Positions 4,541 through 59,753 of a stretch of 64,000 nt of DNA are shown here, one piece after another. Each line of letters opens with the position of its first letter. Position 1 is the first letter of the stretch. The notes below the pieces were generated by a model. It was not told the origin of the DNA, made no database searches, and saw only the letters and a list, made by a program, of their open reading frames with translations. Source of the stretch: Sthenelais limicola. Taxonomy: Eukaryota > Annelida > Polychaeta > Phyllodocida > Sigalionidae. The DNA is taken from contig OW804097.1 in NCBI GenBank assembly GCA_942159475.1, forward strand, positions 10,665,172 through 10,729,171, given 5' to 3'. The position numbers were made by a program, and so were the translations under genes.

Positions 4541-4543
4541 AGA

Positions 4544-6411: not shown

Positions 6412-6490
6412 ATAGCTAATGATCAATACAGGTACATACTCAGGTTTTTGGTCCTTGCCAGCAGTTACCCTTTATTACCATACACTGAGC

Positions 6491-14729: not shown

Positions 14730-14771
14730 GGTTCTGGAGGAAAAGTGTTTGTCACCGCGTTGTTAATAAAT

Positions 14772-25540: not shown

Positions 25541-25544
25541 ATAT

Positions 25545-25778
25545 GGGTCAGATTTTCAGAAAATGTACAATTCGCAGCTGTACACATTCATGAAATTGTC
25601 CTAAATTAGGCTGAAAAAGAATAATTCCAAGTAAATCTGAGTATATTTTGTATCCCATCGATTTAAAGTATCAGTTCTGTTATGTTAAACTGTATTTTGA
25701 AGCTGATTTTTGTCTTAAATGTGGGTTATTTGTCAGAATTGGTGAAGGCTAATTGTACATTTTCTGAGAATCTGACCC
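25545..25778 (+). mobile_element. MITE-A copy, subfamily A, abutting MITE-B
   Basis: Flanked by ATAT on both sides. The sequence to its right is a further MITE-B right end. Confidence 0.9.
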
Positions 25779-27994: not shown

Positions 27995-28872
27995 TTAAAC
28001 TGGAGTGGTCCTTTGATTATTGGCCAGCCATAAATTGCCCTCTCCCTCCAGGGGGCGTGGCATGATCTCCACCTTCTCCACCACAGAGTCACCTGGTGGT
28101 AGTAGATCAACATCTCGCACCACATGACTCTTATTGTTATGATTATTTCTATCATGGTTATTACTTATGGAGGGATCCGAACGCGACCTGATAACATCAC
28201 ATCCGGTTTTGGGTAGACCGCCGAGTGCGCGTCTGTTTGGCCCGCGTGTGATAATGGCTTCCAGTTTAATGTCTGTAATGTCCGCCCGACCTGATATATT
28301 CCCAGCTTCCCGCGGGTTGATATACTCCTTCACAATCTGCAGGCGTATATCGGGCAGGTCTATGTTCCGCAGCTGACTATAACTCTTCAGCATAGTCTGG
28401 CTCTGTATTAAGAACTCAGCCACCTTGTCTGTTGGAGACATGGGACTCATGGCTTCTATGTCTGACCACCTTTCCTCCTCTGATATGTTACTTAAGTGCT
28501 TGATATTGGAATAAAGCTGGATCCTGCCGAGTCTGTCTCGGAACTGGCCCGAGTTCCTATGATGGGTTTTGTTCCTTCGCGGAGGGCAAGGCGGGGGGCG
28601 GATATAACCCCCGGATGTGTTTAAACACCCGAAGCCACCGCCACCATTGATTTCCTTGGTGGAGAGTCTCTCTGATATATCCATGCCATAGAACATCTTG
28701 TCTTCCTCAGACATCTTGGCGTTGAGGTGGGCGCCCTGGATGACGAGGTGGTTAGAGCTGTGGTTGGCGGCCCAGGGCATGAGAAGTAGGATCAGGCTGC
28801 CCAGCACCATGAAGGAACCAGCCAGCAGGAAGCCACTCTTGGCAGGCACAATCTGAGACGCCTCCAGGTAAA
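27995..28872 (-). CDS. Transporter terminal exon: helix 12 and cytoplasmic tail
   Basis: The acceptor TGTTTCAG precedes 28,872. The first two bases complete a Phe codon begun in the previous exon. The frame opens FYLEASQIVPAKSGFLLAG, forms helix 12 (GSFMVLGSLILLLMPW) and ends at TAA (27,995-27,997). The tail of about 250 residues is polar with many Ser, Asn, Arg and Pro and no membrane segment, and is long for this family. Confidence 0.85.
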
Positions 28873-34800: not shown

Positions 34801-37800
34801 AAAAAAATAAAGTATGAAAACAGGTCGATCATAGGGAGGTTTGGTATATACATCGTTTCTCCCTTCGGTCAATGCCCCGGTCACGTGATTTGAGAAACAT
34901 AGCGGAATAGCGGTAAGGGGGCGGTTCGTCGAGGGAAGTTAGAGCAAACCTAAACAGATTTTAGCTCATTTGAAAATAGTGCAACCAACATCGAGGGTCA
35001 TGCTGTGACAAAAGTTCTGAAAAATTAAGTACAGCAAAAACTCTCTGTTTTAAGTCGCTCCCCCCTCTGTTGATAATTTTGATATTAAAACGGGAGCCGG
35101 TGAGCGATAATAAGTGAAACGACTGCAGGAAAAGTGTTGGACATCTGTTTCCAGGCCGACCACTTACAACAACAAAAACAAGAAATAGTTAACAGTGATC
35201 AGTTTACATTTATTTATTTATTTCCGGTTCATGTAGAAGATTGCGTTTCCAAGGGAAACGGAGATTGATGTCAGTTAAATGTAAAGTTCGAGAGGGAGGG
35301 ATAGTAGGAGGGAGAGGAAGTGGAGACAGAAAACATGAAATCCCTATCCCATATATGACTGGTCATTCCATGTGATTCTGTTGGTCCCTTTAACACCTTT
35401 GCATATTAGGCATCTTATTTCGCAACTTGCCACTTTAATTCAGACATGGTCTACCCTTTAATTCATACCTAAACGCCATCTCCTCCCCCTCCCAGCCATT
35501 ACCAGGATGATTCTGATCCCATCTGCTGATATCAGAATCAACAGATTCTTCACACTGATATCCAGGATGGGAGGAGCCAAGATGCTATCAATGATTGACA
35601 GATCTCACCCCAATCCATTTAGATTAATGATAACATCAATCTAATAAAAAACAGTATCTACTGCTTAAAACTGCAAGATCATGGCTTTCCACTGGTTCAT
35701 TTTGCCTCAAAATCATTAATAATGTGTTGTTAATGACAGTAACATCCCAACAAATAGGGACTAAAGGCATTAGATCATTCAGTTATATTAATTAATGAAA
35801 TTTTGACATGAGCCGGGATATCAATTCATGTATTAAGGTATTTCATCTGTAACTCATTTTGCATCACCATATCATGTTTAACAAATGGTAAATAAGCAAG
35901 GGATCCGCGTGGAAGACCTCATCTGAGAGGCAGGCATCCCATTCTGGAATGATGTAATTTTAATTCAGAATAAAAATACAATATATATATATATAGGGTG
36001 AGGATAGGGTGAGGAAACTACCATTTTGAAGAAGTTAATAGGGGAGTTGCATAGCCACCTTTTTTAATCTAGATTCGCATGGAATTATGGGACTTAAGGT
36101 ACAGTATAAAATGTATAGAAAACATGCCATGTTCAGCATGGAATATTTGCCGATGCTCTAATGTCAATATCCATGTGTTATTCATGTTTTCATAACACAA
36201 GTCTACATCTTTCCCATCATGCATTTGGTTAACGTAGGTCATTTACACAAGCTCTGATATTGGTGAAACCATTCTCGCAATTTTCGATACAAATGTTGCA
36301 CGCTATTTGGATGTCAGATTTCATAAGTATCCATCCCATGATGCATTGTAACAGGCATGCGCAGTGGCACATGCAACCCCCCTATTGAAATCTCAGCAAA
36401 TCTTTTTTTCTAAATTATTGATCATTTCCATGTACTACACTCACCAACAAGGCAAACGGTGTATAGCTTCCTAGAGCAGTGAACGCGCATGACGTCATCA
36501 AAATTTGAAGACTGCGCATGCGTAGAGGTGACCAATCAAAATAAGGAGGTTTGCCCTCAAACTCTCGCTGTTGTTTCTTGGTCTTCCTAAGGCTCTTGAT
36601 GTGAAGGATTACCCTGCGGCGCGGGTGGTAGATGGCGGGCGAGCGGTACAGGGTGGCCGCTATCACCAGCAGCATCAGCAGCCCTGTTAGTGCTTGAAAC
36701 CCTCGCATCCACTTCAACATGCTGCAAGAAATCAGAAAAATATAAATTTATATTTTGGAGTGAGTGAGATTGGTTGCTTTAGGCCCTTATCAACACTTTG
36801 AATAATGGTTATATCAAGGGCGGGAGAGCTGAGAGGGAGTGAGTGAGTGAGATTGGTTGCTTTATGCCCTTATCAACACATTGAAGGTTATATCAAGGGC
36901 GGGAGAGCTGAGAGAGAGGGAGTGAGTGAGATTGGTTGCTTTAGGCCCTTATCAACACATTGAAGGTTATATCAAGGGTGGGAGAGCTGAGAGAGAGTGA
37001 GTGAGATTGGTTGCTTTACGCCCTTATCAACACATTGAAAAATGGTTATATCAAGGGCGGGAGAGCTGAGAGGGAGTGAGTGAGTGAGATTGGTTGCTTT
37101 AGGCCCTTATCAACACATTTAATATGGTTATATCAAGGGCGGGAGAGCTGAGAGGGAGTGAGTGAGTGAGATTGGTTGCTTTACGCCCTTATCAACACAT
37201 TGAAAAATGGTTATATCAAGGGCGGGAGAGCTGAGAGGGAGTGAGTGAGTGAGATTGGTTGCTTTATGCCCTTATCAACACATTTAAGATGGTTATATCA
37301 AGGGCGGGAGAGCTGAGAGGGAGGCAGTTTATGGTCTTACCCAGGAAATAGAGACAGAGAAGAAGGGAGAGAGAGACTGAGAAAAAGAGACAGAAAGGCA
37401 CTTTATGGGCATACCCAGGAAATAGAGATAGAGAAGAAGGGAGAGAGAGAGACAGAGAAAAAGAGACAGAAAGGCACTTTATGGTCTTACCCAGGTCATG
37501 GATTATCCACACTAATTATTTGTTGTGTACAACATTGGATGCTGTATACAAACATATATTGACATGCCCCCCTCTATAATTATTGTGGTAAATTCAGGCT
37601 TAAATGTGATGTGTTTCAGGAAAATGAGTCACAAGTCGCAAAATTGGTGTTTTTAAAAGTCGTTTACTTACAAGATCTCTTTGTTGGAATATTTTCATTC
37701 TTGTAGTGTCTAGTCCTTGTGGTTGTATGAATACATCTACCAAATTTCAAGACTTTTTATTAATTATATCAGTGCGTTTTCTTAGATCAACCTATTGAGC

Positions 37801-40800
37801 TACTTTACTGGTAATTATCCACCCAGAAACATTGCAAACGTTTTTTTTTCAAAAATAAAAATATTTAACTAAAAAGATAAAAGTACTTATTAGATGTTCT
37901 TAATGTTTACATTCATTAGAATCGGGTTGGTCTCATCTTTTCAAATATGGTGATGTCTCAAAATCCATATTTTGTGACTTATGACTCATATTCCTAAAAC
38001 GGATCACAAATAATCATCAAGGGGATGGGTAGGGTGTTGAGGGGGGCAGAATACCTGTTTGTAGGGAGATCCACGGTGGCTGGGGGGGGGGGGGGAGTGA
38101 TCGTTTACACCGATAGGACGAAAGGAACACATTTTGACCAACATTCGTTTTTATTTGCTTTTTCTTGCACCACTCCTGGAAACTACATTTTATAATTCCT
38201 ACCCGTGATACGGGGGGGGGGGGGCTTCTAGCGTGTTTTATTTTGCTAAATGGGTCAGATTTTCAGAAAATGTACAATTGGCAGCTGTACACATTGAGTA
38301 AGTTCTGCTAAATTAGGCTGCAATTTGGTCAATTCTAGGTAAATTCGAGAATATTCAATATTGCATTTATTCTAGCAATCTGTTTGGTTAGGTTGAACTA
38401 TATTTTGAACTTTATTTTGGACTGAAATTTGGGTTATTTGAGAGGATTGGTGAAAGTGAATTGTACATTTTCTGAAACTCTCACCCATATATGCTTGGGT
38501 GTATAAAGGACCTTGTCCACTAAGCCGATTCTCATGTGATTCTTATGGCATTTAAAATGAGCCCACACATCCAAGAACTCAGAGTCGAATTGGTCCTTAA
38601 GACAATTTTTACAAATTAAAAGTCAGTTTTGCCAGGCACGGCAAAATTAAAGTCCCTACTAACTGCATATAATTGTATTGGCCTTAAAATAAAAAAAACC
38701 CCCATAAATATCCATATAAAAATTTACTCTAATTTACGTGGTCTAGTGAAACGACCCTGGATATTATGCTGATGGAGGTGAACTTTAATGTACTGACAAT
38801 GGCGTCCAAGTCTGTAGAGAAGGTAAGCTTGCGTGTCTGGGTGATGCATGTCTTAAATGTGTTTTTCAGGAAAATGAGTCATTAGTCGCAAAATTGATAT
38901 TTTTTAAAGTGTTTTCTTCACAAGACCACATTATTGGAATGTTCTAATTCTTTAAGGGTTGATAACTCATGGTCACATCAATCTATGTATCAAATTTCAG
39001 GACGATATATGTAATATATCCTTTAGTTTTAAAGGTTCTCATATGGACTACATTTAGTTACTTTACTGTTTATTGACCCCCAGAAATATTGGAAACTTTT
39101 TTTTTCAAAAACGAAAATGTCAAACTTAAAATCTAGAAATACTAAATATATTAGAATATTAGACTGTTTACTATCATTGGAATCGGCTTGATCTCATCTG
39201 TTCAAAAATAATGATATCTCAAAATCAATTTTTTGCGACTTATGACTCATTTTCCAAAAACACATCACATATAGTATCTCGTGGCTAGCATAACATAGAC
39301 ACTGAATGTCCAGGCAACAGGGGATTTGCATAGCCGCCATTTTGATTCTAGATTCACATGGAATTATGTGACTAATGGTACAACAGTATAAAATCTATAG
39401 AAAACTTGTTATGTTCAGCATGGCAGATTTATCAATGCTTTCGATAAAAACGTTGGCAAATATTTGTATGTCAGATTTTATCAGAAGTATGTCAGATTCC
39501 ATCCCAGCATGCACTGTAACAGACATGCGCAGGGGCACATACAAATCCATGAATGTCCAGTTTGGAGTGAGAGCCTTAGTTTAGAGGGACCCTCTCAATT
39601 TCAATTTCAATTTCTCTCATAAGCTTCACAACTTCCTGTTCATTTGATTTTGGGATAGACACCAGTGATTATGGTAGATCACTTTCATAAAATCTACATG
39701 ACATATTTTCTGCAATATGTATTGGCTAGTTCTATTTCAATAATTTTTCATTTCTGACAAAACTTTGAATTACAAAGCCATCGTATTAACTTCATGACTG
39801 CAAATAGTGTAAATTAATCTAACTCTTTTAGCTGCCATATCATGGTTTTATTCCATGTTGGCGAATGGATTGTTTCACCGAATCACACAAACAAAGAAGA
39901 AGGGACTGATTTTCAGAAAATGCACAATCTGTAGTTCTACACATCTATCAAATTCTGCTTAAAATCAGAGTGAAAAATGATAAATACTAGGTATATCTGA
40001 ATGTATTCTGTATTGTATTCATTGAATATATGGGTCAGATTTTTAGAAAAAGTACAATTCACATTGACCAATCCTCTCAAATAACCCACATTTCAGACAA
40101 AAATGAGCTTCAAAATGTAGTTTAACATAACAAAACTGATACTTTGAATCAATGCGATACCAAATGTACTCAGATATACCCGGTATTCATCATTTTTCAA
40201 TCTAATTTAGCAGAATTTCCTAAATGTGTAGAGCTGCCAATTGTACATTTTCTGAAAATCTGACCCATATCCGTCTGGTTATGTCGAACTGTATTTTGAA
40301 AGTAATTCTCTTCTTAATTAGGGTTTTCTGAGAGGATTGGTGAAGGCCAATAATTATTGTACATTTTCTGAAAGCTTGACCCAGAAGAAGAGCGATGGAG
40401 GCAACGTTCTGTTGAAATCTTTCAAATGCAGATAACGCGGCCTGAAATCTGACCTGAATGAAGATTTGCCTTAGAGTGGTTCTCAGTAGTTATAGGACTT
40501 CCAGTGTGTAGTAAACATTCTCTTAAAGGGAAAAGGATAAGATGCTACTATAGGGAATATTAAAAAAATCTGGGAACAAATTCCTTACCAAACAATTTTT
40601 TCACCAAAGTGTTGGTAAAGGTGTCTACTAATATGTATCAAAACATTTAAACTCAACTCCCGTAGGAGAACCTGTGACAGCTGAAACAAAAATGGCCGCC
40701 ACTAAATCTTTGAACCTCAATAACTTTGGATAGAATAAACATGTAATCAAGTGTGAATACTCTTTTTCCATGTTTTAAGGCATGGGGAATCCATTGAAAT

Positions 40801-43800: not shown

Positions 43801-46800
43801 GAATTTTATTTAGACTATTTAGAATTTTCCATAAATACACCTTTTTCATGAAGTGAATGTTTTTATGCATCATGTATAACCTGAATCTATTGATAATAAT
43901 TTTCAAAAATTCTCATGATGATAATTAGATAATTAATTAGGTGATTTATGTATAATTGATTTCAAGCACTTATATTATTTCTATACCAAATTGCAAGAAG
44001 AATGTATGTACTATTCGATCAAAATTGATTTTAATAACATAAAGTGAGAAAATAAACAGAATTATTTTTCTGCTAATTTCTGACAACTAGTCGGACCCCA
44101 CAACTGTTTAATAATGGTTACTGACTTATGTCTGGCCAGCAAGCTTGTAGGTAATCAAATGGGATGGGTTTCAGGTAAATGAGTCATAAGTCGCAAAATT
44201 GATATTTTTCAAAGTGTTTTTTTCACAAGATCGCTTCATTGAAATGTTCTTTAGAGGGTTGAGCACTTATAGTCATTTAAATCCAAGTATCAAATTTCGG
44301 GGCATTGTAATAAATATATCCTTGCGTTTTGAAGGCTTTTGTATTGAGTATATGTAGTTACTTTACTTTACCCATCCAGAAACATTGCAAACTTTTTTTT
44401 TCAAAAATAAAAATATCAAACTTAAAATACAGAAATACTTATTAGGTGTCCTAGTGTTTACTATCATTGAATCGGCTTAATCTCCTCTTTTCAAATATGG
44501 TGATATCTCAAAATCCATATCTTGCGACTCATGACTCTTTTCTTAAAACTGATCACAAATAGTTGAGATGTAATAAAACAAAGTTTGTTTACCGGAGAAA
44601 AATAATGATGTTTAAAATCATTAAAAATTACTTGAAGTTGGTATTTTATGCTTTATGCATATGTTGGAAAAACTCCCAGGATGGTACAAGCCTAACTGTA
44701 AGCGGCTTAGGAGTTTAGAGGCGTAGAAATCGAAGGAAGATCAGTACACTGGCGAAAACATCAAAATTTACTATTAAATGACCAGTGAACGTATAGGTCA
44801 ATTTTCAGCACGGTGCCTGCAATATTTGCATTGGATTCTCAATTTCGTAACGAACACTCTGTCCGTTGCCACTCCCGCTACAGAAAACATGGGCGACCAA
44901 CACGACGTCTTTAACGGCTCGATCATCTTCGACGACGAAGACTGTGAAGATTTGCCCACCGTCACTCAAAAGGTAGGAGCTGAGAAACTAAATAATGTAC
45001 AAAATGTGAATGGAAAACCTGCCGAGAATGATCTCCACATTAAGGCTAGTCCCCAGGATTGTTCAGGAATTAGTGAAAGTGGGATAGAAACTGTGGAAAA
45101 AACTCAGAGCTCGCTCGACGTACCCTATCTCTTATCTCCAGTTCACGCTAATTCAAATCCAGAGGCACCTAGTGATCAAATCGAACATGCTCAAAATAAT
45201 AATCAAGAAGCAGATATCTTAGAAACTACTCTAATTCAAGAGACACCAAACGAAGAGCTTATCAATGAAACTGTTTTTCGGGTACTAGGCATCTTAGTTG
45301 AGGAAGACCGTCCTAAAATTAAAAAGTTCAAAGCACTAGAAAGAAAAGTAGATAAACTCCAGATTACAACCGACGCCGTAGCCCGCAAAATTCAGACTAC
45401 GTTTGAATGGTTAAATCTATATCGGAAGAAAATTGACAATAGACTGAATACCCTGGAAAACTTTCTCTTTCGCCCTGACAATGGGGAGAAATTAGAGGAG
45501 GTGATAGATAGGGTGACAAAACATTCTGAAATGTCTCTCACGGAAAATCAACCAATTTCTGTACCCACTAACATTGAAAATGTGGATCCCCCACGAGCTA
45601 GTTATGACCCAGTCTAAGGCAGGAGTAAACCTTACCGAAAGAATAACAAAAGCAGAGAGGGAACTGGAGACATCAATTGATACCATCAGATCTAACTTAG
45701 ACACAAAACAGAATAAACTAGAAGAAATTGAACTAACTTTTTCTGATCTAGACCAGAGGATTAGTCAAATCACCGGTAAAATCGGCCTTAGGGAACAAGG
45801 TAAAAATGTAACGGTTGGTGCTCCCGAACCTGAGCCATCGGGCCAGGGGCAAGGGAAAGCAGATGGGTCGACTCATTTAATTATTGAAGGAGTTGCCGAA
45901 TCAAAATGAAAATCTGAAAACACTAAGAAAAAAATCCTTGATTTGCTAGGCCAAGTTGTCGCTATTTCTGAAGTCAACATTGTAACTGTTTATCGCGTTG
46001 GCCTTCCCAAGAACAACGTAACCAGGGCGATCTATGTCGACCTAGATGACCCGGAAAAAAAGAAAGCGATTCTAAATCAATCCAGGGAACTAAGGAGGAA
46101 AACTCAATGTAATGTCTGGTTCAATAAATATCTGCCTGACAAGAGTGATTATAACTATCAGATGATCAGAGACTGCCATCGATTACTTAAATTGCGCGGC
46201 ATTGAGGCGGAGGTGGTTCTAGGTCACATTATAAAGGGATCTAGGTCATACGCAGCAAGCGATCTCCACAACATGCCCGAGGGCTGCAGGCCACTTGACG
46301 TGTCACACATACCCGTGGATGATGGCGGCGTGGGCTTCCACGGAGCCCACAGCCACTTTTCCAACTTCTACGGCTCAAAAGTGAAATATAACCATGTGTC
46401 CTATGACTCTGCGGAACACGCATACCAACATTCTAAAGCTCTCCATCTGAAACAAACGAAAGTGGCCCTGGCGATCAGTAGCGTAGCGAGTCCTTTACAG
46501 GCCAAGAGACTAGGTAGCAAACTGGATCTCGCGCCGGAAGTCGACCCGCACCTACTAGCTGACTGGAAAGCTAACGAAGAAAAAACTCTAAAGAAAATCG
46601 CCAGAGAAAAATTCCTCCAGCATCCTCTACTCAAAAAAGAATTATTACGTGAGGATATAAAATGTTTCTACGAAGTTACTGCTTCAAAAAATGGGGGATC
46701 GGCCGCCGAGTGCGCGGAGTACTCATTGCAAATGGCGGTCGCGTCCCTCTAAAACGAGCAACGTTCGTCGGAGAAAATAAATTCGGAAACATACTTAACG

Positions 46801-49800
46801 AGCTAAAGAGAGAACTTTCAAGGGAGAATTAATCTGATTGAGACATCACAACGGTGCATCCCTCTAAGGTAGGGGTTTCTCTAGGATGGATAGACAAGGT
46901 ATCGACCTATTATTGCTATGTGACTCTCGAGGCGCTGGCCTCGACACACTACTAAGAAACATCGCTCCTCATATAAACAGTCAAGTATACGTTGCTAGGG
47001 GGGCAGATACTCTCGCTCTCGCTAAAAGGTCTAAGAAAATTGTCATGTTAACCCGGCCAAATGTTGTGATGATGCTGGCAGGTATCTGCAATATTACGTA
47101 CAAGGATGTTAGTACAAAGGAGGTTGGACTCAGGTACCTAGAGGATATAAAGTTGGAAGACAAGGTGAGAAGTGATATGGCTAGTGCTCGGGAACTCATT
47201 ACCCAATACTTCCCTCATCACCACCCTCCTCCAACCATAATCTTCGGCACCGCCATAGGGCTCGACCTTGTGGCCTACAACGACCGCCTAGCTCTAACTT
47301 CCCAGGCGCTACGAGATGTCCTTACAGCAAGCAAAACCGCAGCCATAGCCGAGGATCAACTGGTACTCGACAGACAGATGCAGGTATTCAACAACCTAAT
47401 CAAGAGCGAAAACGTAGAGAAGCAAGTCCCCACCCCATACATAAGCCAAATTGTCCACATGAACCGTTCTGGAAGACGTCATCGGACAACCAAACGGCCA
47501 ACTTATACAGCAGCATACAGTCTCCTCGACCAAGATGGTTGTCACTACTCACCCCTACTCAAGGAGAAAGTAGCCCACAAAATTATAGTAGCATACGGAA
47601 AAATTTGACTGACAATAAGTGATTTGAATTTGGAAATTAGATTTGGATATATATAATTATATGCGGATTTAAGATTTGAACTTGAATTATTAATCTTCTC
47701 GTTACCTTCTCACCATGGCTAGATCAAAGCCAGATTTACTGTTGTAGGGGTGTTAATTAGATATTCAACGAGTACTTGGTCTGATTTGGGAAAGCTACTA
47801 AGTAACCGGCGCTTTCATGAGCCCGACCTCTTCAGTGGTGGCCCCAATACAGGCCGGATACTCCCCCCATTTGTTCTCCTGACGATTGGACACTCTTTAT
47901 CAAATAGTTAAGTATGAAACCTTTACCTATTTGAACCAACTGAACACTGATCTCTTCTCATTGAAATGTATACATGTAATTTGTACCACACTGTCCTTGA
48001 AACAGGGTTTATGAAGAAGTGACTAGGTACCATGCTTACACTAAGTGATTTAATACTTCGTATCTCGCACTCACTCTTAACCAACCTTAAAAGAGTTCTA
48101 ATTATCTAAGCGAGAATGTTACCCCCATACCATACTGTCATGACCCTATCAAATCATCAAATTTATTTCTCTCACCATGTCCCACTAAGGGATCTACTTC
48201 CCCCACACCCCAATGGAAGAAAGTGTAGATACATTTAGAGCCCTAAAAGGATTAAAGGCAATATCATGGAATATCAGAAGCCTGAAACCCAAATTTGACC
48301 AAATAAACCAATTTATATACGACACTAAACCACAAATACTCTGCTTCCAAGAAACCTGGTTGAATAATAACTTTGACGATAGCTGCTTATCTATCCCCGA
48401 CTATAATATTATACGAAAAGACAGAGCTAGAAAGAGAAGAGGAGGTGGATTAATCTCTTACATCCATTCCTCCCTTAAAACGAATGACATAGATTACCTT
48501 AACCTTAACCGATCGACTAAGGATATAGAAATCCAAGTGTTTGAAATTACTAAACAATACATGAAGAAAAAGATTGTAATAAACCTTTATAGGCCTCCAC
48601 AAGGCAGTCTCCAAATTGCCCTTGATGAACTTGAGGAAACCCTCTACAACATCAACACGAAAAATGACATCCTTCTCATGGGTGACTTTAACTACGACTC
48701 CAATTATATTGAACAAAGTAATTCTGCGGGAGCGGAAAAATTTAAAAACATTATCTTGAAACATAATCTCCAGCAACAGGTCAAAGTCCAAACCAGAACA
48801 AGTAAAACATCATCATCCATTATCGACCACATATACACGAATAGTTACCGTTTACAAACACTCCAGAATTCCTCCCTAAAAATTGCCCTTGGGCTCCCAA
48901 AACTGACAAACACTAAACAAATTCATAAATCCCTTAATGTCCCATCTCTAAACTCCAGAAGAAATAGTCATCTGCTTGAAAGAGCCTACCTTTGTTCCCT
49001 TAAAACTGATAAAGTTGACACTCGTAACGTCAACCTAAGGACCCTTAGAAAGGGCAAAAAGCTCAAAGTACCTCACCCCAAAAATGAAATGTTCAAAAAA
49101 AGTTTTATGTACAATATACCTATATACTGGAACCAATTACCGGATGATGTTCAACTTATTAAAACCAGGGTCGCATTCAGATCCTACCTTAAGCATAGAT
49201 ATTTCACCGAAAACGACCCATATCTGGGAAGTAACGACACCGACTAATATGTAAATTCCTATATGTAATAGTGATGATGTAGATTGATAGGATGAAAACT
49301 AAGGCGTGTAATGCCTCATTAATAAGATCGATACAACGATAAATTTCATTTATTAAATGTTTGATTTGATGAGAATAAAGAAGGAAGAAAGTCCCCAAAA
49401 ATGGACTACTATACAAAGAAGTGTATAGACTGACACTATGTCAAAACGTAACAACTCGCGCCAAAACTGTTTAACATGTACTTATTCCTCTGTTAAGTTC
49501 TAATTCACCTAAACTGTTAATGTAATGATTGCCAGGTAAATCTGAAATGTAAACACGGCACTTAACTGACTATACCATTACTGTAGTTCTTGAGAAACTG
49601 TAACTTTATCACCTTGCACTTTACTGTAACCATATGTATTTTCTTATACTCATGTGATTAATAATCAGCGAGACGAGGTAACAATATGTATTCTCTTATA
49701 CTCTTAAAATTAATAGTCAGCGAGAAGAGATAAATCTAAATCTGCATACTATTGGCACATAACGCGGACTCAATGACACTCAAAGGACAATGCCACTTCT

Positions 49801-51636
49801 CTTTCTCAATTTGACAGCTAGCCGTAACCATATATTGTATATTTAACGATTGACGTGTAATCTCCATTATAATGTTATGTGATGTCCTTATACTTATTGT
49901 TTTCTGGTGGGATTCCGGGAAGAACTCAGGGTCCTGGACGCTGAGAGGGCCGATCCCATTTCAGTCGCCATTTACAATTTATTGTACATGTGAATTGAAT
50001 AAAAGTTTTTATATATATATATATGCTGTGCATAGATGGGGGTAAGCTGTATTTACTGAGCGAAAATAAGGAGATCGGAGATTGTCGCTTCCGGTAAGAT
50101 TGTTTAAACTGCGCATTCATACATTGTCTGGCATCACAAGTTCTTAGTGATTTCTGCTGATGTGTGCATAAAAATGGATTTGAACATAAACATTTGATGA
50201 CATGATGGAAGTAGTAAATTTGCCTAAAAGAAGCAAAGTCAGCAGATAAGATATGAAAACTGCAAAACACAAAGTTAGACAGGTTGCTGGTTGTGTCAGT
50301 TGCTTAAAACGTAGCATGGACTCTTGATCAATGCTCTAATGTCAATATCCATATGTTATAATGGTTTCAATAAGACAAGTTCCCACCTTTCCCACCATGC
50401 ATTTGGTTTTCATAGATCATTTACACAAGCTGTAATATTAGTGAAAACATTCTTGCAAGTTTCGATAAAGACATTGCAAATTATTTGTATGTCATATTTC
50501 ATCAGAATCCATCCCAGGATGCATTGTAACTGACACGCGTAGTGGCACATGCAACTCCTCTATGCACCGCCATGTTTTGGACAGCTTATGGTCGGTTCAC
50601 TGAGTGCTAAATGAATTCCATAAAAACTATGAATGATGAATGTTTTAGAAAAATGGTCATATGCGGCAAAATATGGATTTCGAGGTATCACCATATTTGA
50701 AAAGAGGAGATCAAGGTGATTTCAATGATAGTAAACACTGGGACACCTAATATGTATTTCTATATTTAAAGTTTGATATTTTTATTTTTGAAAAAAAAGA
50801 AGTTTGCAATGATTCTGGATGGGTAATTACGAGTAAAGTAACTAAATATACTCCATACAAAGGCCTTCAAAACGCAAAGATATATTCGATAGATAGAATG
50901 CCCTGGAATTTGTTGCATAGATTGATATGACTATTGGTCCTAAACCCTCTCAAAATCAAAATATTACAATAAAGATGTGTGACCCGCCGAGGGGAAAGGA
51001 GGCTCCGCACCGCAGTTATAGTTCCTGGTATTCCCGCTAGGAGTCACATCATGTTCATGACGTCACTGTCACAAATGTTTATATTAGTAATTCTGAGAGG
51101 CAGGTAACTTTGAAAGTCTGTAACTTCACTAATTTTTAGAGTATCAACAAAATTCTTTCACTTTTATAATGCTCATTTCCCCTTCTGTACATCCCGGTCA
51201 CTAAAAAAAAAATTTAATATTTATTTTTTGTACATGTGAAGTGTCACAGGATATGAGTCACTCCCCCAACCTATTTGAGATCATCTACTGAAAACTGACA
51301 TAACTTTACACAAAATTTTCAACTATTTTTTTCGGTTATTAACTCAGGAGGACATGCAGATTCAGAATCTATGATAAACCCAAATTCGAAAATTTGGCCC
51401 TGGAGTCCCCTTTCTGCTTGGCTGGTCACACGTCTTGTAAAAAAAACCCTATGAATACGTGACAATAATATAACTCACCTGATGTAGTTGATTAGAAAAT
51501 GAGAGGAAGAGGCAGCCTAGTGAGGTAATGAGGCCACCAACTGTGGCAATGAGACGCGGCGACCGCCGGCGACACAAGGCGATGATGAGCGGCGAGGTGA
51601 GGGAAGAGGCAGCCATACTAGCACAGCCCAGCCACA
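27995..51636 (-). CDS. SLC16/monocarboxylate-transporter-like MFS protein, 5'-partial gene
   Basis: Five coding exons on the minus strand (51,636-51,479; 42,347-42,172; 36,721-36,445; 31,691-31,313; 28,872-27,995) join with GT/AG boundaries and matching phases (0, 2, 0, 1). They give at least 621 residues covering helices 2-12 of a 12-helix major facilitator. The family signs are a first cytoplasmic loop CRRRSPRLIATVGG after helix 2, AAYFHKRRECSEMLILSGSG, the long basic loop after helix 6 with RRRVILHIKSLRKTKK, and a hydrophilic C-terminal tail. SLC16 proteins move monocarboxylates or related small acids, amines or thyroid hormones across the plasma membrane; the substrate cannot be read here. 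The exon with helix 1 and its DGGWGW-type motif was not found. The introns are filled with MITEs, an 82-bp array twice, and a LINE. Confidence 0.85.
28943..29128 (-). mobile_element. MITE-A copy, subfamily B, truncated, near an acceptor
   Basis: It lies about 70 bp on the intron side of the terminal exon's acceptor. The GCAGCT-type end is missing. TTTACATCATTAAGTGTAAA occurs on both sides (28,897 and 29,128), a longer duplication than MITE-A normally makes. Confidence 0.75.
29195..29799. mobile_element. Short TIR element with CCGTTTATAAGCC motifs, split by MITE-B
   Basis: Ends TATTTCCCCGTTCAT and ATGAACGGGGAAATA are inverted repeats. The interior repeats TATAAGCC/TATAAGCCCG. Without the nested MITE-B it is about 200 bp. 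Confidence 0.7.
29359..29764 (-). mobile_element. MITE-B copy nested in the TATAAGCC element
   Basis: Full-length inverted copy flanked by ATAT on both sides. Confidence 0.85.
30057..30451 (+). mobile_element. MITE-B copy, full length
   Basis: Ends GTGATGTGTTTCAGGAAAAT and TTTTCCTGAAACACATCAC match each other without a mismatch over at least 19 bp. ATAT flanks it. Confidence 0.9.
30533..31290 (-). mobile_element. MITE-C copy split by a MITE-B, next to a splice donor
   Basis: The inverted MITE-C starts AGGGCATTTGCATATGCC and ends GGCGGCTATGCAAATACCCT. Its end is about 23 bp into the intron from the donor of the 31,691-31,313 exon. Confidence 0.85.
30670..31076 (-). mobile_element. MITE-B copy nested in MITE-C
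   Basis: Flanked by AAAT on both sides. Uninterrupted MITE-C copies read TATAAATGATCTATGA across the site, so the duplication can be seen directly. Confidence 0.9.
31313..31691 (-). CDS. Transporter exon: helices 8-11
   Basis: The acceptor TACTTGCAG precedes 31,691 and the donor GTAAGTATG follows 31,313. The 379-bp exon starts in phase 0 with GLNARVAVAQGE and ends one base into a codon. It encodes at least three hydrophobic helices, including LLMVFFGLALALGTVLIGLI and ALYVWTYGLLYGGYMYSLKV, then LAQSIPTLIGAPIS, a typical SLC16 helix 11 start. Confidence 0.88.
31727..31840 (-). mobile_element. MITE-A left-half fragment near an acceptor
   Basis: It begins 36 bp on the intron side of the 31,691 acceptor. 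It stops in GATACTTTAAA. Its flank TTAGCTTTAGGCATAT is repeated beside the copy at 32,285. Confidence 0.75.
31849..32028 (+). repeat. Dispersed repeat, copy 2 of 2
   Basis: It matches 9,887-10,066 through AAGTTTCACAAAATGTATCA, GTGAGGGCACAGAAAGAATA and GAGCTAAATAACAATGGACG, with a small internal duplication of GTATCAGTGAAAG. Confidence 0.7.
32033..32267 (-). mobile_element. MITE-A copy, subfamily A
   Basis: Full length with GGGTCATATTTTCAG and TCTGATCC ends, one substitution in each terminal repeat. Confidence 0.88.
32285..32519 (-). mobile_element. MITE-A copy, diverged subfamily A
   Basis: Flanked by ATAT. Its ends GGGTCATATCGTCAG and TTCTAACGATTTGACCC are complementary to each other but differ from the consensus in the same place. 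Confidence 0.85.
32520..32966. other. Intronic stretch with no supported exon
   Basis: Frames of 65-70 codons occur, but none has a hydrophobic or family pattern that would fit the transporter, and they lack matching splice sites. Confidence 0.5.
32967..33201 (+). mobile_element. MITE-A copy, subfamily B
   Basis: Full length, with both terminal repeats and the GGTTAGGTTGAACTGTATTT centre. Confidence 0.9.
33359..33594 (+). mobile_element. MITE-A copy, subfamily A
   Basis: Full length, ATAT on both sides. Confidence 0.9.
33744..33963 (+). mobile_element. MITE-A copy, subfamily B, right end lost
   Basis: It begins GGGTCAGATTTACAG and breaks off after TGTGCATTTTCTG, where unrelated sequence follows. 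Confidence 0.8.
34335..34450. repeat. Three adjacent stem-loops
   Basis: In order: AGCCGGGA/TCCCGGCT, CAGGCA/TGCCTG, and a 19-bp stem with one bulge, ATCTGCTGTC-ATCTTATGA pairing with TCATAAGATGACAGCAGAT. They may be the 3' end of a retroelement, since a similar CGGGA hairpin lies near the LINE tail at 15,430. Confidence 0.7.
35906..35998 (+). mobile_element. LINE 3' tail fragment
   Basis: GGAAGACCTC, a hairpin region and CAGAATAAAAATACAA with a TA run match the tails at 10,156 and 56,480. Confidence 0.55.
36041..36382 (+). mobile_element. MITE-C copy, full length, near a donor
   Basis: TA-flanked ends GGGGAGTTGCATAGCC and ATGCAACCCCCC. It ends about 60 bp from the donor of the 36,721-36,445 exon, inside the intron. 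Confidence 0.88.
36445..36721 (-). CDS. Transporter exon: helix 6, central loop, helix 7
   Basis: The acceptor TTTCTTGCAG precedes 36,721 and the donor GTGAGTGTAG follows 36,445. One base completes the Ala codon split from the previous exon. The 277-bp exon encodes helix 6 (FQALTGLLMLLVIAATLY), a basic cytoplasmic loop with RRRVILHIKSLRKTKKQQRE, then FDWSPLRMRSLQILMTSCAF and helix 7. A central loop at this place is standard for MFS transporters; here it is short. Confidence 0.88.
36755..37322 (+). repeat. 82-bp tandem array, about 7 units, next to a splice acceptor
   Basis: Units contain GATTGGTTGCTTTACGCCC, TTATCAACACATT, TATATCAAGGGCGGGAGAGC and TGAGAGGGAGTGAGTGAG. Each unit has an internal inverted pair, CGCCCTTAT..ATATCAAGGGCG. 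The array begins about 34 bp from the exon at 36,721, on its intron side. Confidence 0.92.
37323..37495 (+). repeat. GA-rich tail repeat after the 82-bp array
   Basis: Two copies of a block with GGCAGTTTATGGTCTTACCC or its variant, AGGAAATAGAGA and GAGAAAAAGAGACAGAAAGG. The same block follows the second 82-bp array at 52,815. Confidence 0.85.
37606..38007 (+). mobile_element. MITE-B copy, full length
   Basis: AAAT flanks it on both sides. The right end is worn to CCTAAAACGGATCAC. Confidence 0.88.
38252..38486 (+). mobile_element. MITE-A copy, subfamily B
   Basis: Full length, worn at the right end (CTCTCACCC). Confidence 0.88.
38487..38858. other. Intronic spacer with no supported exon
   Basis: No motif or recurring repeat seen. 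Confidence 0.45.
38859..39268 (+). mobile_element. MITE-B copy, full length
   Basis: Body follows the consensus; the left end is shortened to GTGTTTTTCAGG and the right end reads CCAAAAACACATCAC. Confidence 0.85.
39320..39550 (+). mobile_element. MITE-C copy with internal deletion
   Basis: Left end GGGGATTTGCATAGCCGC is clear. The central 120 bp or so are missing and the right end is worn to CACATACAAATCC. Confidence 0.75.
39902..40382 (+). mobile_element. MITE-A copy containing a nested MITE-A
   Basis: The outer, diverged copy runs 39,902-40,027 and resumes at about 40,271. Its sequence is continuous if the inner copy and one ATAT are removed. Confidence 0.85.
40032..40266 (-). mobile_element. 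MITE-A copy, subfamily A, nested in MITE-A
   Basis: Intact and flanked by ATAT. Its terminal repeats are closer to consensus than those of its host copy, as expected for a younger insertion. Confidence 0.9.
40568..41012. mobile_element. TIR element with arms of about 80 bp
   Basis: The arm at 40,568-40,648 (AATCTGGGAACAAATTCCTT, CCAAAGTGTTGGTAAAGGTG) is inverted at 40,931-41,012. About 280 bp lie between, including a second partial AAATCTGGGAACAAATTT. No coding frame is present. Confidence 0.8.
41109..41556. mobile_element. MITE-D copy 3
   Basis: Ends AGGTGCGATTCCACTGGA and TCCAGTGGAATCACACCT are inverted repeats of 18 bp with one mismatch. Flanks are TAA and CAA. Confidence 0.85.
41683..41745 (+). 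repeat. Dispersed repeat, copy 2 of 2
   Basis: It matches 22,391-22,500 over CAGGTTAACTAACGAGTTGG and GTGAATATTGCAC, with a gap in the right half. Confidence 0.65.
41759..42086 (-). mobile_element. MITE-B copy, degraded
   Basis: Inverted body with TAAAGTAGCTAAATATACTCC and GTGACTTTTGACTCATTTT. It lies about 85 bp from the donor of the 42,347-42,172 exon. Confidence 0.7.
42172..42347 (-). CDS. Transporter exon: helices 4-5
   Basis: The acceptor GCTTGCAG precedes 42,347 and the donor GTAAGTAAT follows 42,172. The 176-bp exon starts in phase 0 with MLISYVLVVGLGSGITLSAA and has AAYFHKRRECSEMLILSGSG, which matches the SLC16 pattern YFxKRRxxAxGxxxxGSxxG. It ends two bases into an Ala codon. Confidence 0.9.
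42397..42631 (-). mobile_element. MITE-A copy, subfamily A, near an acceptor
   Basis: It starts 50 bp on the intron side of the 42,347 acceptor. The right end reads CTGACA instead of CTGACC. Confidence 0.88.
42660..42887 (+). mobile_element. MITE-A copy, subfamily B
   Basis: It starts GGGTCAGATTTTCAG and ends with the variant GGTGACTTCACCC, so the two terminal repeats differ in their outer bases. Confidence 0.88.
43175..43566. mobile_element. 392-bp TIR element with 7-bp target duplication
   Basis: Ends CAGGGAGGTATATACAGAGG and CCTCTGTAAATACCTCCCTG start 30-bp inverted repeats. GGTGAAT lies directly outside both ends (43,168-43,174 and 43,567-43,573). The family does not recur in the window. 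Confidence 0.85.
43574..44160. other. Intronic stretch with no supported exon
   Basis: AT-rich, no recurring repeat recognised. Confidence 0.5.
44161..44556 (+). mobile_element. MITE-B copy, full length
   Basis: Flanked by AAAT. Ends are worn to GGGATGGGTTTCAGG and CTTAAAACTGATCAC. Confidence 0.85.
44778..45617 (+). CDS. LINE ORF1, N-terminal part with coiled coil
   Basis: The 279-residue frame is acidic and polar at first (IFDDEDCEDLPT), then has heptad-like LERKVDKLQITTDAVARKI and RLNTLENFL from about residue 185, fitting the coiled coil that trimerises ORF1 proteins. It ends at a TAA at 45,615-45,617, while the natural continuation lies in another frame, so a frameshift occurred between about 45,574 and 45,615, perhaps at the C-run near 45,588. 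A second ATG (MGDQHDVF) at 44,889 could be the true start. Confidence 0.65.
   Translation: MTSERIGQFSARCLQYLHWILNFVTNTLSVATPATENMGDQHDVFNGSIIFDDEDCEDLPTVTQKVGAEKLNNVQNVNGKPAENDLHIKASPQDCSGISESGIETVEKTQSSLDVPYLLSPVHANSNPEAPSDQIEHAQNNNQEADILETTLIQETPNEELINETVFRVLGILVEEDRPKIKKFKALERKVDKLQITTDAVARKIQTTFEWLNLYRKKIDNRLNTLENFLFRPDNGEKLEEVIDRVTKHSEMSLTENQPISVPTNIENVDPPRASYDPV
45574..45909 (+). CDS. LINE ORF1, middle part
   Basis: After the shift the coiled coil goes on (ITKAERELETSIDTIRSNLD, KLEEIELTFSDLDQRISQI), then a Pro-, Gly- and Glu-rich linker and HLIIEGVAESK. That last phrase looks like the first strand of the RRM-like fold of ORF1 proteins. It is cut by TGA at 45,907-45,909, and the same frame goes straight on behind it (KSENTKKKILDLLGQVV). 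Confidence 0.65.
   Translation: MKMWIPHELVMTQSKAGVNLTERITKAERELETSIDTIRSNLDTKQNKLEEIELTFSDLDQRISQITGKIGLREQGKNVTVGAPEPEPSGQGQGKADGSTHLIIEGVAESK
45943..46752 (+). CDS. LINE ORF1, RRM-like plus NADAR domain
   Basis: Residues 1-95 complete an RRM-like nucleic-acid-binding fold. From about residue 131 to the end is a NADAR domain: HFSNFYG (138-144), Glu158 in SAEHAYQ, VASPLQAKRLGSK, then IAREKFLQHPLLKKELL and FYEVTASK. The C-terminal WGIG and GENKFGNILNELKREL blocks of the family lie one frame over, so the true end is at 46,832; a shift occurred in the A- and G-runs at 46,686-46,697. NADAR proteins (E. coli YbiA is one) hydrolyse N-glycosidic bonds, including ADP-ribose on guanine and early riboflavin intermediates. 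The fusion to an RNA/DNA-binding retrotransposon protein is what is odd here. The activity of this copy is doubtful because the ORF is broken. Confidence 0.8.
   Translation: MLGQVVAISEVNIVTVYRVGLPKNNVTRAIYVDLDDPEKKKAILNQSRELRRKTQCNVWFNKYLPDKSDYNYQMIRDCHRLLKLRGIEAEVVLGHIIKGSRSYAASDLHNMPEGCRPLDVSHIPVDDGGVGFHGAHSHFSNFYGSKVKYNHVSYDSAEHAYQHSKALHLKQTKVALAISSVASPLQAKRLGSKLDLAPEVDPHLLADWKANEEKTLKKIAREKFLQHPLLKKELLREDIKCFYEVTASKNGGSAAECAEYSLQMAVASL
46886..47608 (+). CDS. LINE SGNH-hydrolase (esterase) ORF
   Basis: The 240-residue frame shows the four SGNH blocks: LLLLCDSRG with Ser14, Gly39 in VARGAD, Asn69 in LAGICN, and DGCH with Asp217 and His220 in DQDGCHYSPLLKEKVAHKI. Such domains cleave esters and are known in ORF1 of CR1-like LINEs, where a role in membrane passage or lipid binding has been suggested. 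Here it forms a separate ORF 53 bp after the NADAR end. It has no break, so it could still be translated. Confidence 0.8.
   Translation: MDRQGIDLLLLCDSRGAGLDTLLRNIAPHINSQVYVARGADTLALAKRSKKIVMLTRPNVVMMLAGICNITYKDVSTKEVGLRYLEDIKLEDKVRSDMASARELITQYFPHHHPPPTIIFGTAIGLDLVAYNDRLALTSQALRDVLTASKTAAIAEDQLVLDRQMQVFNNLIKSENVEKQVPTPYISQIVHMNRSGRRHRTTKRPTYTAAYSLLDQDGCHYSPLLKEKVAHKIIVAYGKI
47609..48212 (+). other. Spacer between SGNH ORF and ORF2
   Basis: About 600 bp with no long frame. A spacer this long between LINE ORFs is unusual; the next ORF would need its own initiation or re-initiation. Confidence 0.5.
48213..49247 (+). CDS. LINE ORF2 derivative: endonuclease joined to C-terminal tail, no RT
   Basis: Residues 1-210 are an AP-type endonuclease: ISWNIRSL, CFQETWL with the catalytic Glu, NLYRPPQ, LMGDFNYD and SSSIIDHIYTNS. 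The sequence then jumps to the region after the reverse transcriptase: LQTLQNSSLKIALGLPKL and, near the end, YNIPIYWNQLPDDVQ. Several hundred residues, including the final SDH motif of the endonuclease and all RT motifs, are gone, yet the joint at about 48,845 keeps the frame. Loss of SDH makes even the endonuclease likely inactive. Confidence 0.8.
   Translation: MEESVDTFRALKGLKAISWNIRSLKPKFDQINQFIYDTKPQILCFQETWLNNNFDDSCLSIPDYNIIRKDRARKRRGGGLISYIHSSLKTNDIDYLNLNRSTKDIEIQVFEITKQYMKKKIVINLYRPPQGSLQIALDELEETLYNINTKNDILLMGDFNYDSNYIEQSNSAGAEKFKNIILKHNLQQQVKVQTRTSKTSSSIIDHIYTNSYRLQTLQNSSLKIALGLPKLTNTKQIHKSLNVPSLNSRRNSHLLERAYLCSLKTDKVDTRNVNLRTLRKGKKLKVPHPKNEMFKKSFMYNIPIYWNQLPDDVQLIKTRVAFRSYLKHRYFTENDPYLGSNDTD
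49248..50024 (+). other. LINE 3' UTR
   Basis: It contains a partial duplication (CATATGTATTTTCTTATACT and ATATGTATTCTCTTATACTC), GGAAGAACTC before a hairpin region, and the tail TTGAATAAAAG then (TA)n. Confidence 0.65.
50326..50560 (+). mobile_element. MITE-C copy, left-truncated
   Basis: It begins inside the family at ATCAATGCTCTAATGTCAAT and ends GGCACATGCAACTCCTC. Confidence 0.75.
50638..50980 (-). mobile_element. MITE-B copy, degraded
   Basis: Inverted body with ATCACCATATTTGAAAAGAGG and TAAAGTAACTAAATATACTCC. The end near 50,978 is worn. Confidence 0.75.
50981..51478. other. Intronic stretch with no supported exon
   Basis: GTGTGACCCGCCGAGGGGAA starts a block ending near CTGGTCACACG at 51,430, so a further TIR element is possible, but the ends match only over a few bases. 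Confidence 0.35.
51479..51636 (-). CDS. Transporter exon: helices 2-3
   Basis: The acceptor TGTATTGCAG precedes 51,636 and the donor GTGAGTTATA follows 51,479. Two bases complete a codon from a missing upstream exon. The 158-bp exon encodes WLGCASMAASSLTSPLIIAL (helix 2), CRRRSPRLIATVGG (the basic MFS loop 2-3) and LITSLGCLFLSFSNQLHQ (helix 3). Intron position after helix 3 agrees with known SLC16 genes. Confidence 0.88.
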
Positions 51637-51679
51637 CTGCAATACAGGAAATATAGCATTTTCAGATCATTATATTTTG

Positions 51680-52826
51680 AGTGAGTGAGTGAGTGGGATT
51701 GGTTGCTTTACGCCCTTATCAACACATTTAATATGGTTATATCAAGGGCAGGAGAGCTGAGAGGGAGTGAGTGAGTGAGATTGGTTGCTTTACGCCCTTA
51801 TCAACACATTTAATATGGTTATATCAAGGGCGGGAGAGCTGAGAGGGAGTGAGTGAGTGAGTTTGGTTGCTTTACGCCCTTATCAACACATTTAATATGG
51901 TTATATCAAGGGCGGGAGAGCTGAGAGGGAGTGAGTGAGTGAGTTTGGTTGCTTTACGCCCTTATCAACACATTTAATATGGTTATATCAAGGGCGGGAG
52001 AGCTGAGAGGGAGTGAGTGAGTGAGTTTGGTTGCTTTACGCCCTTATCAACACATTTAATATGGTTATATCAAGGGCGGGAGAGCTGAGAGGGAGTGAGT
52101 GAGTGAGTTTGGTTGCTTTACGCCCTTATCAACACATTTAATATGGTTATATCAAGGGCGGGAGAGCTGAGAGGGAGTGAGTGAGTGAGTTTGGTTGCTT
52201 TACGCCCTTATCAACACTTTTAATATGGTTATATCAAGGGCGGGAGAGCTGAGAGGGAGTGAGTGAGTGAGATTGGTTGCTTTATGCCCTTATCAACACA
52301 TTTAAGTGTTATATCAAGGGCGGGAGAACTGAGAGGGAGTGAGTGAGTGAGATTGGTTGCTTTATGCCCTTATCAACACTTTTAAGTGTTATATCAAGGG
52401 CGGGAGAGCTGAGAGGGAGTGAGTGAGTGAGATTGGTTGCTTTATGCCCTTATCAACACTTTTAAGTGTTATATCAAGGGCGGGAGAGCTGAGAGGGAGT
52501 GAGTGAGTGAGATTGGTTGCTTTATGCCCTTATCAACACATTGAAGTGTTATATCAAGGGCGGGAGAGCTGAGAGTGAGTGAGTGAGTGAGATTGGTTGC
52601 TTTATGCCCTTATCAACACATTCAATATGGTTATATCAAGGGCGGGAGAGCTGAGAGGGAGTGAGTGAGATTGGTTGCTTTACGCCCTTATCAACACATT
52701 GAAGGTTATATCAAGGGTGGGAGAGCTGAGAGGGAGGCAGTGAGTGAGATTGGTTGCTTTATGCCCTTATCAACACTTTTAAGTGTTATATCAAGGGCGG
52801 GAGAGCTGAGAGGGAGGCAGTTTATG
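51680..52826 (+). repeat. 82-bp tandem array, about 14 units, next to a splice acceptor
   Basis: Same unit as at 36,755, with subtypes carrying TAATATGGTT or TAAGTGTT in the centre. It starts about 44 bp on the intron side of the 51,636 acceptor, after the same TATATTTTG lead-in as the first array. Confidence 0.92.
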
Positions 52827-56738: not shown

Positions 56739-57148
56739 GTGTTGTGTTTTAGGAAAATGAGTCACAAGTCGCAAAATTGATATTTTTCAAAGTGTCTTTT
56801 TCACAAGATTTCTTTATGGGAATGTTCTGATTTTTACAGGGTTCAATAATTTTAGTCATATGAATCCATGCAACAAATTTCGGGACATTGTATTAAATTA
56901 TATCCTTGCGTTTTGAAGGCCTTCGTATGGAGTATATTTAGTTACTTTACTGGTAATTACCCGCCCAGAAACATTGCAAATTGTTTTTTTCAAAAATAAA
57001 AATATGAAACTTAAAATAGAGAAATAGTTATTAGGTGTCCTAGTGTTTACTATCATTGGAATCGGCTTGATCTCCTCTTTTCAAATATGGTGATATCTCA
57101 AAATCCATATTTTGCGACTTATGACTCATTTTCCTAAAAACGGGTCAC
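56739..57148 (+). mobile_element. MITE-B copy, full length
   Basis: Flanked by ATAT; ends GTTGTGTTTTAGGAAAATGA and TCATTTTCCTAAAAACGGGTCAC. Confidence 0.88.
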
Positions 57149-57183
57149 ATATGTGGAAGAGATAACTTGAGCTTATTTCAATA

Positions 57184-57568
57184 GGGGATTTGTATGTAGC
57201 AATACGCATTTCTGTTACAGGCCATGCTGGGATAGATTCCAACCATGTTTGACAGAGAACTAAATGTTTTTATTGGCCACATGCACTTTTTACAGAACTA
57301 ATTTAGCAATATTTGTATAGAAAATAGCAAGAATGGTTTCTCCAATATCATAGCTTGTATAAATTACCAATGAAAACCAAATGCACGATGGGAAAGATGG
57401 AGGCTTGTGTCATGAAACCATACAGGCCTATAACACATGGACATGTACATGGGAACACCGATAAATATCCCTTGCTGAGCATGACTTGTTTGCTAAATAG
57501 TTTACACCATACCACAAGTCCCATGATTCAATGCGGTCAAGATCCAAGATGGCGGACATGCAAGTAGT
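57184..57568 (-). mobile_element. MITE-C copy, inverted
   Basis: Starts TA-GGGGATTTGTATGTAGC and ends AAGATGGCGGACATGCAAG. A short extra stretch near 57,245-57,300 interrupts the body. Confidence 0.8.
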
Positions 57569-57625
57569 CTATTGGTCAGATTCTCAGAAAATGTACAATT
57601 CACCTTCACCAATTCTCTCAAATAA

Positions 57626-58875
57626 CGGAATAATGGAATTCAATGGTATAAAAGGAGATTTATTAAGGTGGATCAAGTCATATGTAATAGGTAGGAGCCA
57701 GAGAGTCAGGATCGGAACCGATGAGTCATCCAGCCGTGGTTTGAACTGCGGGGTACCGCAGGGCTCGGTACTAGGGCCGATACTATTTTTGATATATACG
57801 AATGACCTGAAATCTCTGAATCTAAATTGTAATTATATACTATATGCGGACGATACCGTGCTATATAGTTCTGGTAAAGACTTAGTAGATATCTGTAGGA
57901 AAATGGAAGCTGACATTGGCATATTCCATGAATGGGCGGTAAGAAATAGAATATTAATGAATATGAAGAAAACAAAACATATGGTTATCAGTAGAAAGAA
58001 GAAAATAAACTCACCAGCAATGACAATTAACAACCAAATAATAGAGAGAGCGACCAACTATGAATACTTAGGAGTAAAGATTGATGAACGTATGACACTA
58101 TTACCACAGTTGGACACCGTAATCAGGAATCTAAATTTCAGAATATACCAGCTAGGATGTATGAGAAAATTCCTCACTGCACATGCCGCTATGACACTTG
58201 TAAAGACTTTTATTCTACCGATCATAGATTACTCCCTACCGTTCCTAACTTATGTAGGACAGAATAAATTAAACAAACTACAACGAATGCAGAATAAAGC
58301 TATACGAATTGCAACGAGGAGTGGATTCCTAATAGGAAGATTAGAGTTACATAAAAATTATAAGATTATGACAATAAAGAACCGGCAAAAGTACTTACTT
58401 ACAATATTAGGAAAAAAAAGTACAAAGGATAACAATAACTCCGTTGTAAACAGATACCCGACGCGAAGACAGGACGCAGACACTATACAAATGCGAAGAC
58501 CAATGGCTGAATGTGACCGTAAAACCTTTTCATACCAAATGGCCATAGGATGGAATGAGCTGACTCCAGAGATTAGGAACCTTGGCATGGACGACCTAAA
58601 GAAAAGAATGAAATTCTTAATTTTAACGAATCAAAATGACAACGACCTATGAAAGGGAAATGTAACACTTAACTAGTAGCCCTCCTGGTAGCGTCGCGCC
58701 TCCTGCGAGCCCACAACCCCTCTAAATGCCACTAACCCATAAGAGATTTTACTAATATTTGCATGGCTACCCACTAAGTAAGAACTTTAAGGCAGCATGG
58801 GTGGAACATCGCCCCCGGTGAGCCTGTGGATGTATTTGTACTGCCAATAAAAATTATAAAAAAAAAAAAAAAAAA
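57626..58875 (+). mobile_element. 5'-truncated LINE with poly(A) and target duplication
   Basis: It starts in the middle of RT coding sequence and ends in AATAAAAATTAT and an A-run at 58,859-58,875. The MITE target AAATAAC is present on both sides, the expected mark of target-primed reverse transcription. The tail type (A-run, not TA-run) sets it apart from the other LINEs here. Confidence 0.9.
57628..58652 (+). pseudogene. LINE reverse transcriptase C-terminal part
   Basis: From MEFNGIKGDLLRWIKSY the frame gives GVPQGSVLGPILFLIYTNDL (motif B), LYADDTVLYSS (motif C), ILMNMKKTKHMV (motif D), YEYLGVKIDERM, KLNKLQRMQNKAIR and MAIGWNELTPEIRNLGMDDL, ending naturally. The part from motif B to the stop is unbroken. 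Motif A and everything before it are missing by 5' truncation. An upstream extension of the frame to 57,531 is only MITE sequence. Confidence 0.9.
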
Positions 58876-59607: not shown

Positions 59608-59753
59608 ATATATAATATAGTTAATCATTCAAACTATCACACCTTCTTGTGACGGTATAATTGACTCAATGATGGAGTAGAGAACCAATTGGGGAGGATA
59701 TCCTAACGTCTTCAAGGATGACTCAGCAGAAATCCTTGCTTAAATTACTTTTT

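Follow-up and report, generated by a model that had tools for sequence, protein, structure and literature searches.

A NADAR domain in the ORF1-like region of a decayed LINE from the annelid Sthenelais limicola

A decayed LINE-like block and its surroundings

The window, by which we mean the whole 64,000-nucleotide stretch of Sthenelais limicola contig OW804097.1 that was analysed, contains a LINE-like block on the forward strand (Table 1). Its left limit was placed where a dispersed repeat unit ends (position 44560), and its right limit was set by eye on the basis of a signal resembling AATAAA and a run of TA. The block encodes an ORF1-like region, a separate ORF of 240 codons and a LINE endonuclease of the apurinic type, the latter two being separated by 580 bases without a long ORF. 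No Pfam family matched the N-terminal ORF1-like part above its cut-off, and the following part yielded weak matches to coiled-coil families, all of them below the Pfam cut-offs. The frame of this coiled-coil-like part is shared by a 280-codon stretch (45910-46752), which holds first the region called RRM-like in the original prediction and then the NADAR domain. If the first four coding stretches were once a single one, ORF1 has acquired two frame changes and one stop codon. A search of the endonuclease ORF and its tail with Pfam gave no match to a reverse transcriptase (RVT) model, and the endonuclease ORF retrieved no PDB sequence at E≤0.01. The tail weakly resembles those of two reverse-transcriptase-bearing LINE ORFs in the window (61714-62058, 27% identity, E=1e-5; 58275-58577, 24% identity, E=8e-4). 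The LINE copy is decayed, internally deleted and dead.

Table 1. Features of the LINE-like block, in window positions.
Feature	Position	Strand	Basis or remark
LINE-like block, whole	44561..50026	+	both limits inferred
N-terminal 279 aa of the ORF1-like region, acidic and further on helical	44778..45617	+	open frame
ORF1-like region, coiled-coil-like part (different frame, in-frame TGA at 45907-45909)	45517..45909	+	
ORF1-like region upstream of NADAR ("RRM-like" according to the original prediction)	45910..46317	+	open frame
NADAR domain, main part, with E43, K50, W89 and E125 equivalents	46318..46689	+	profiles, alignments, model
NADAR domain, end (WGIG...GENKFGNILNELKREL...stop), another frame	46692..46834	+	weak match to the profile end
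240-aa ORF, counted from the first ATG	46886..47608	+	SGNH-hydrolase-like motifs, by eye only
ORF2, LINE-type endonuclease domain	48189..48839	+	PF14529 E=1.2e-11; PF03372 E=6.5e-11
ORF2, C-terminal tail, in frame with the endonuclease	48840..49247	+	reverse-transcriptase core absent

Near the supposed ends of the block no target-site duplication of at least nine bases was found; a wider search returned two 10-base matches (44382/50471 and 44674/50512), both away from these ends. On either side of the block stands a copy of a repeat unit about 360 bases long, the two in inverted orientation (44200-44560 and 50625-50975), and a second repeat (50313-50563) lies inside its right flank. Further copies of the 360-base unit occur, for example, at 25172-25553, 29355-29724, 30669-31037, 38895-39275 and 56778-57152. 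Since the flanking arms copy a repeat that is common in the window, we set aside the reading of the block as a DNA transposon bounded by inverted arms.

The 240-codon ORF that separates the NADAR part from the endonuclease contains the motifs CDSRG, GICN and DGCHYSP, which on inspection by eye resemble those of an SGNH hydrolase. Neither Pfam nor NCBIfam returned a family match for this ORF, and its single-sequence structure model (mean pLDDT 36.7) was unusable for recognizing a fold. CR1 and L2 LINEs have ORF1 proteins with an esterase (PMC4120745).

Elsewhere in the window, three further forward-strand LINE ORFs encode a reverse transcriptase of family PF00078 (55626-56240, E=2e-32; 57501-58652, E=5.2e-17; 59722-62130, E=3.7e-28), and a forward-strand ORF of 611 codons (4538-6373) matches the Fam20C family of Golgi kinases (PF06702, E=1.3e-63), as would suit a eukaryotic and probably animal host. 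Four minus-strand ORFs (27995-28933, 31257-31856, 36415-36747 and 51449-51661) resemble, on inspection by eye, exons of a monocarboxylate-transporter-like gene, and the LINE may therefore lie within an intron in antisense orientation; Pfam gave no match at E≤0.01 for the first three. Tandem repeats occupy 6416-7978 (a 16-codon unit in open frame, LTNTSHTGTSPYIIPQ), 12233-14766 (a purine-skewed minisatellite with several frames open) and 51597-52821 (an array of units of 80-82 bases).

The NADAR domain and its attachment to ORF1

According to the original prediction, a NADAR domain of the YbiA family lies directly behind an RRM-like part of an ORF1 protein. All of the peptides on which this was based are present in the claimed order, distributed over two frames: HFSNFYG, SAEHAYQ, SPLQAKRLGSK, REKFLQHPLLKKELL and FYEVTASK share the frame of 45910-46752, and WGIG and GENKFGNILNELKREL follow in the frame of 46692, which ends with a stop codon at 46832-46834. 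Profile searches bear out the assignment. The Pfam model NADAR (PF08719) matched residues 146-247 of the ORF with positions 9-113 of its 163 (E=1.8e-14; 54.7 bits, above the cut-off of 35.1), and the NCBIfam model for a riboflavin-intermediate N-glycosidase (TIGR02464) matched with E=1.3e-14, although its 54.7 bits stayed under the cut-off of 73.7. Using a joint alignment of the domain with YbiA as query, 5756 proteins were retrieved at E≤0.001, the best 120 of which were dominated by the YbiA half of the query. A home-built profile of 26 NADAR proteins from this joint search, with the row of the window left out, was run on 1146 stretches of at least 30 aa from all six frames of the window. 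The NADAR ORF ranked first among the 1146 (36.7 bits, E=1.9e-10) and the next stretch scored 7.2 bits; no second NADAR-like stretch exceeded this value in the six frames, nor does the window hold a second copy of the NADAR-bearing ORF. Ranked third was the stretch with the C-terminus (46653-46829; 5.1 bits), whose E-value of 1.1 is therefore not significant alone, and which matched profile positions 130-148, where the C-terminus of the domain belongs. A chance match was rejected on the basis of 2000 shuffled versions of the ORF; a score was reported for 1384 of them, 6.8 bits at best. The YbiA-like fold that characterizes the NADAR superfamily was also found in the domain, and its membership in this superfamily (PF08719) is confirmed.

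The RRM label fared differently. No RRM or ORF1 model of Pfam matched the region ahead of the NADAR domain at E-values up to 10, and the structure model of this region is of low confidence (low pLDDT), so that neither profile nor model backs the label, which is based on resemblance. Like the type II ORF1 of LINEs, the block encodes a coiled-coil-like part and then a charged region ahead of the endonuclease (PMC4120745); the type II protein, however, consists of a coiled coil, an RRM and a CTD (Transposase_22), whereas the ORF1 of the window lacks a profile match to RRM or CTD. The text of the paper describing type II ORF1 proteins does not name NADAR (PMC4120745).

That the domain closes an ORF1-like coding region of a LINE is supported by the profile match together with an unbroken frame, which continues from the preceding region through the junction with the domain, and the end of the domain coincides with the end of its reading frame. 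The GC content at third codon positions is similar in the upstream region (0.50), the domain (0.47) and the following ORF (0.48). Insertion of a separate gene copy was rejected as well, as repeats of at least 7 bases bracketing the domain were absent (46200-46360 compared with 46760-46900). The GC content is 0.37 in the endonuclease part, compared with 0.46-0.47 in the NADAR part and in the ORF that follows it; because of this difference and the 580 intervening bases, it is not certain that the NADAR domain and the endonuclease lie in one element, but they likely do. Taken as a whole, the original prediction thus stands in the identity of the domain and in its position at the end of ORF1, and is not confirmed in its RRM label.

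Active-site residues and relatives

For the NADAR protein of Phytophthora, the residues E43, K50, R79, D86, W89, R93, E125, D130 and W133 have been named (PMC11543638). They were mapped onto the window by hand through alignments, among them a comparison of 13 NADARs, including four from the best 120 of the 5756 proteins, and an alignment of 26 NADAR proteins from the same best 120 (A2); 30 of these 120 were used in a further alignment (A3). Equivalents of E43, K50, W89 and E125 are kept in the window according to the 13 compared NADARs and A2. The glutamate of FYEVTASK occupies the E125 site in the last strand, where all 13 compared sequences and all 26 of A2 also have E; a last-strand glutamate serves as definition of the YbiA family (PMC11125620; PMC11543638). 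At the K75 site the window has K, as do eight of the 13 NADARs and none of the 26 in A2. The D86 site is occupied by L. The D130 site, which is D in 13 of 13 compared NADARs, reads K in the first frame, but it lies at the frame break, and for the W133 site the tryptophan of WGIG stands in the other frame. Two contacts to the phosphates of ADP-ribose, R79 and R93, are replaced in this copy: the former by S (R in 10 of the 13, with Q, K and S once each in the others, and R in 26 of 26 in A2), the latter by E at a site with K or R in all 13 and in all 26 of A2. With E43, K50 and E125 kept and R79 and R93 replaced, the catalytic core is therefore right and the phosphate grip altered, and the two changes may reflect either decay of this single copy or a trait common to its family.

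The NADARs of DarT1 systems, phages and Phytophthora (PMC11543638; PDB 8bau) are free-standing or TA-linked, whereas that of the window is fused to a LINE and differs in the R79 and R93 equivalents. E. coli YbiA (PDB 2b3w), likewise free-standing, lacks K at the K75 site and has R at the R79 site, in contrast to the K and S of the window.

Searches of a protein database with the 280-aa ORF (1042 candidates) and with the domain alone (26 candidates) returned none at E≤0.001 and E≤0.01, respectively. Among viral contigs, searched with the NADAR ORF and the endonuclease ORF, and prokaryote contigs, searched with the NADAR ORF, no relative with a fusion of NADAR and LINE was confirmed. A similar fusion is in print, nevertheless, which settles a point on which the original prediction had been unsure: a study published in Genome Biology in 2025 describes a conserved YbiA-family NADAR in the Pol of one Ectocarpus Gypsy lineage and briefly mentions that a Repbase query gave divergent matches, apparently to NADAR, in the ORF1 proteins of several Crassostrea gigas LINE families of the Tx1 kind (PMC12477816). 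The fusion of NADAR with ORF1 is therefore not new, and the window adds to it one dead copy, the reading of its active site and its ORF arrangement. The likeness to the oyster elements, compared by description only, consists in a YbiA-family NADAR in a LINE ORF1; they belong to the Tx1 clade (PMC12477816), to which the element of the window cannot be assigned because its reverse-transcriptase core is missing. The Ectocarpus element shares the retroelement-borne NADAR and differs in being an LTR element of an alga with the domain in Pol (PMC12477816).

Possible functions of the domain

NADAR/YbiA proteins assayed in PMC11125620 removed ADP-ribose from guanine, and YbiA also cleaves riboflavin intermediates (PMC11543638). 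ADP-ribosylation of guanine in DNA, which the original prediction had invoked for shellfish, is indeed documented there and in butterflies, where a part in immunity has been proposed for it (PMC8053099). Animal RNA viruses carry NADAR and Macro domains that have been read as counter-defence (PMC9503650). Being dead, the copy in the window allows no statement on its own activity, and our favoured interpretation, which we draw by analogy and hold tentatively and with somewhat less than even confidence, concerns its living relatives. In these, the ORF1-like protein would end in a YbiA-type NADAR domain, a type of fusion reported for oyster Tx1 LINEs, and this domain would be an N-glycosidase for ADP-ribose tethered to the RNA-protein particle of the element. 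The upstream part of ORF1 would hold the RNA. Host enzymes would attach ADP-ribose to the RNA or cDNA of the element or to proteins bound there, and the NADAR pocket would strip this group, probably from guanine, and so would protect the element by erasing the marks of the host. Such an eraser role is possible, with the equivalents of E43, K50 and E125 kept. Against this interpretation as a whole stand the S and E at the R79 and R93 equivalents, the K read at the D130 site by the frame break, the lack of a fusion relative among the searches run, and the differing GC content and 580 bases that make a single element uncertain.

If retroelements carry erasers of ADP-ribose, hosts may fight them by ADP-ribosylating nucleic acids, a form of defence for which, to our knowledge, little direct evidence exists in animals. 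NADAR-bearing LINEs and Gypsy elements would in this case be natural probes, with the transposon revealing the mark used by its host.

The main rival to the eraser is a role in binding or scaffolding, in which ORF1 would retain the NADAR fold without catalysis, as a module that binds RNA or protein and aids particle assembly, comparable to the supposed role of RRM, CTD and zinc knuckles in other ORF1 proteins. The loss of two phosphate contacts is consistent with it, binding and chaperoning of the transcript have been ascribed to ORF1 domains (PMC4120745), and in nematode trans-splicing SNA-3 requires NADAR domains, one of three of which lacks key residues (PMC9303266). We nevertheless regard this role as rather unlikely, as the equivalents of E43, K50 and E125, the residues most tied to catalysis, are kept even in a decayed copy. 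Catalysis could also be directed at another substrate than guanine-linked ADP-ribose, for instance free ADP-ribose derivatives, riboflavin-type intermediates or an ADP-ribose- or NAD-like group on RNA. Action on soluble ADP-ribose derivatives has been proposed for many phage NADARs (PMC9503650), a role in processing RNA intermediates has been suggested for the retroelement-borne domain (PMC12477816), and the match to TIGR02464 points in the same direction, though it remained under the cut-off. The window contains no pointer to a small molecule, however, and the position in ORF1 suggests nucleic acid or the particle as target, which makes such a substrate unlikely.

That a host or bacterial NADAR gene landed by chance in one LINE copy we consider highly improbable. 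A single copy was examined, and the protein, viral-contig and prokaryote-contig searches yielded no relative, as would be expected of such an accident; yet the continuity of the frame across the junction, the shared end of domain and ORF, the similar composition and the lack of bracketing repeats all argue against it, as does the reported presence of NADAR in ORF1 of several oyster LINE families (PMC12477816).

Descent of the domain from a phage-type NADAR is possible, judged from sequence similarity under uneven sampling in which 8bau was the sole eukaryotic NADAR compared. The domain alone matched 87 phage and 22 plasmid records at E-values up to 0.01, the best E-value among the phage matches listed being that of Ruegeria phage Tedan (5e-10, 35.6% identity), and in a local BLAST it scored 62 bits with the protein of this phage versus 45 bits with YbiA.
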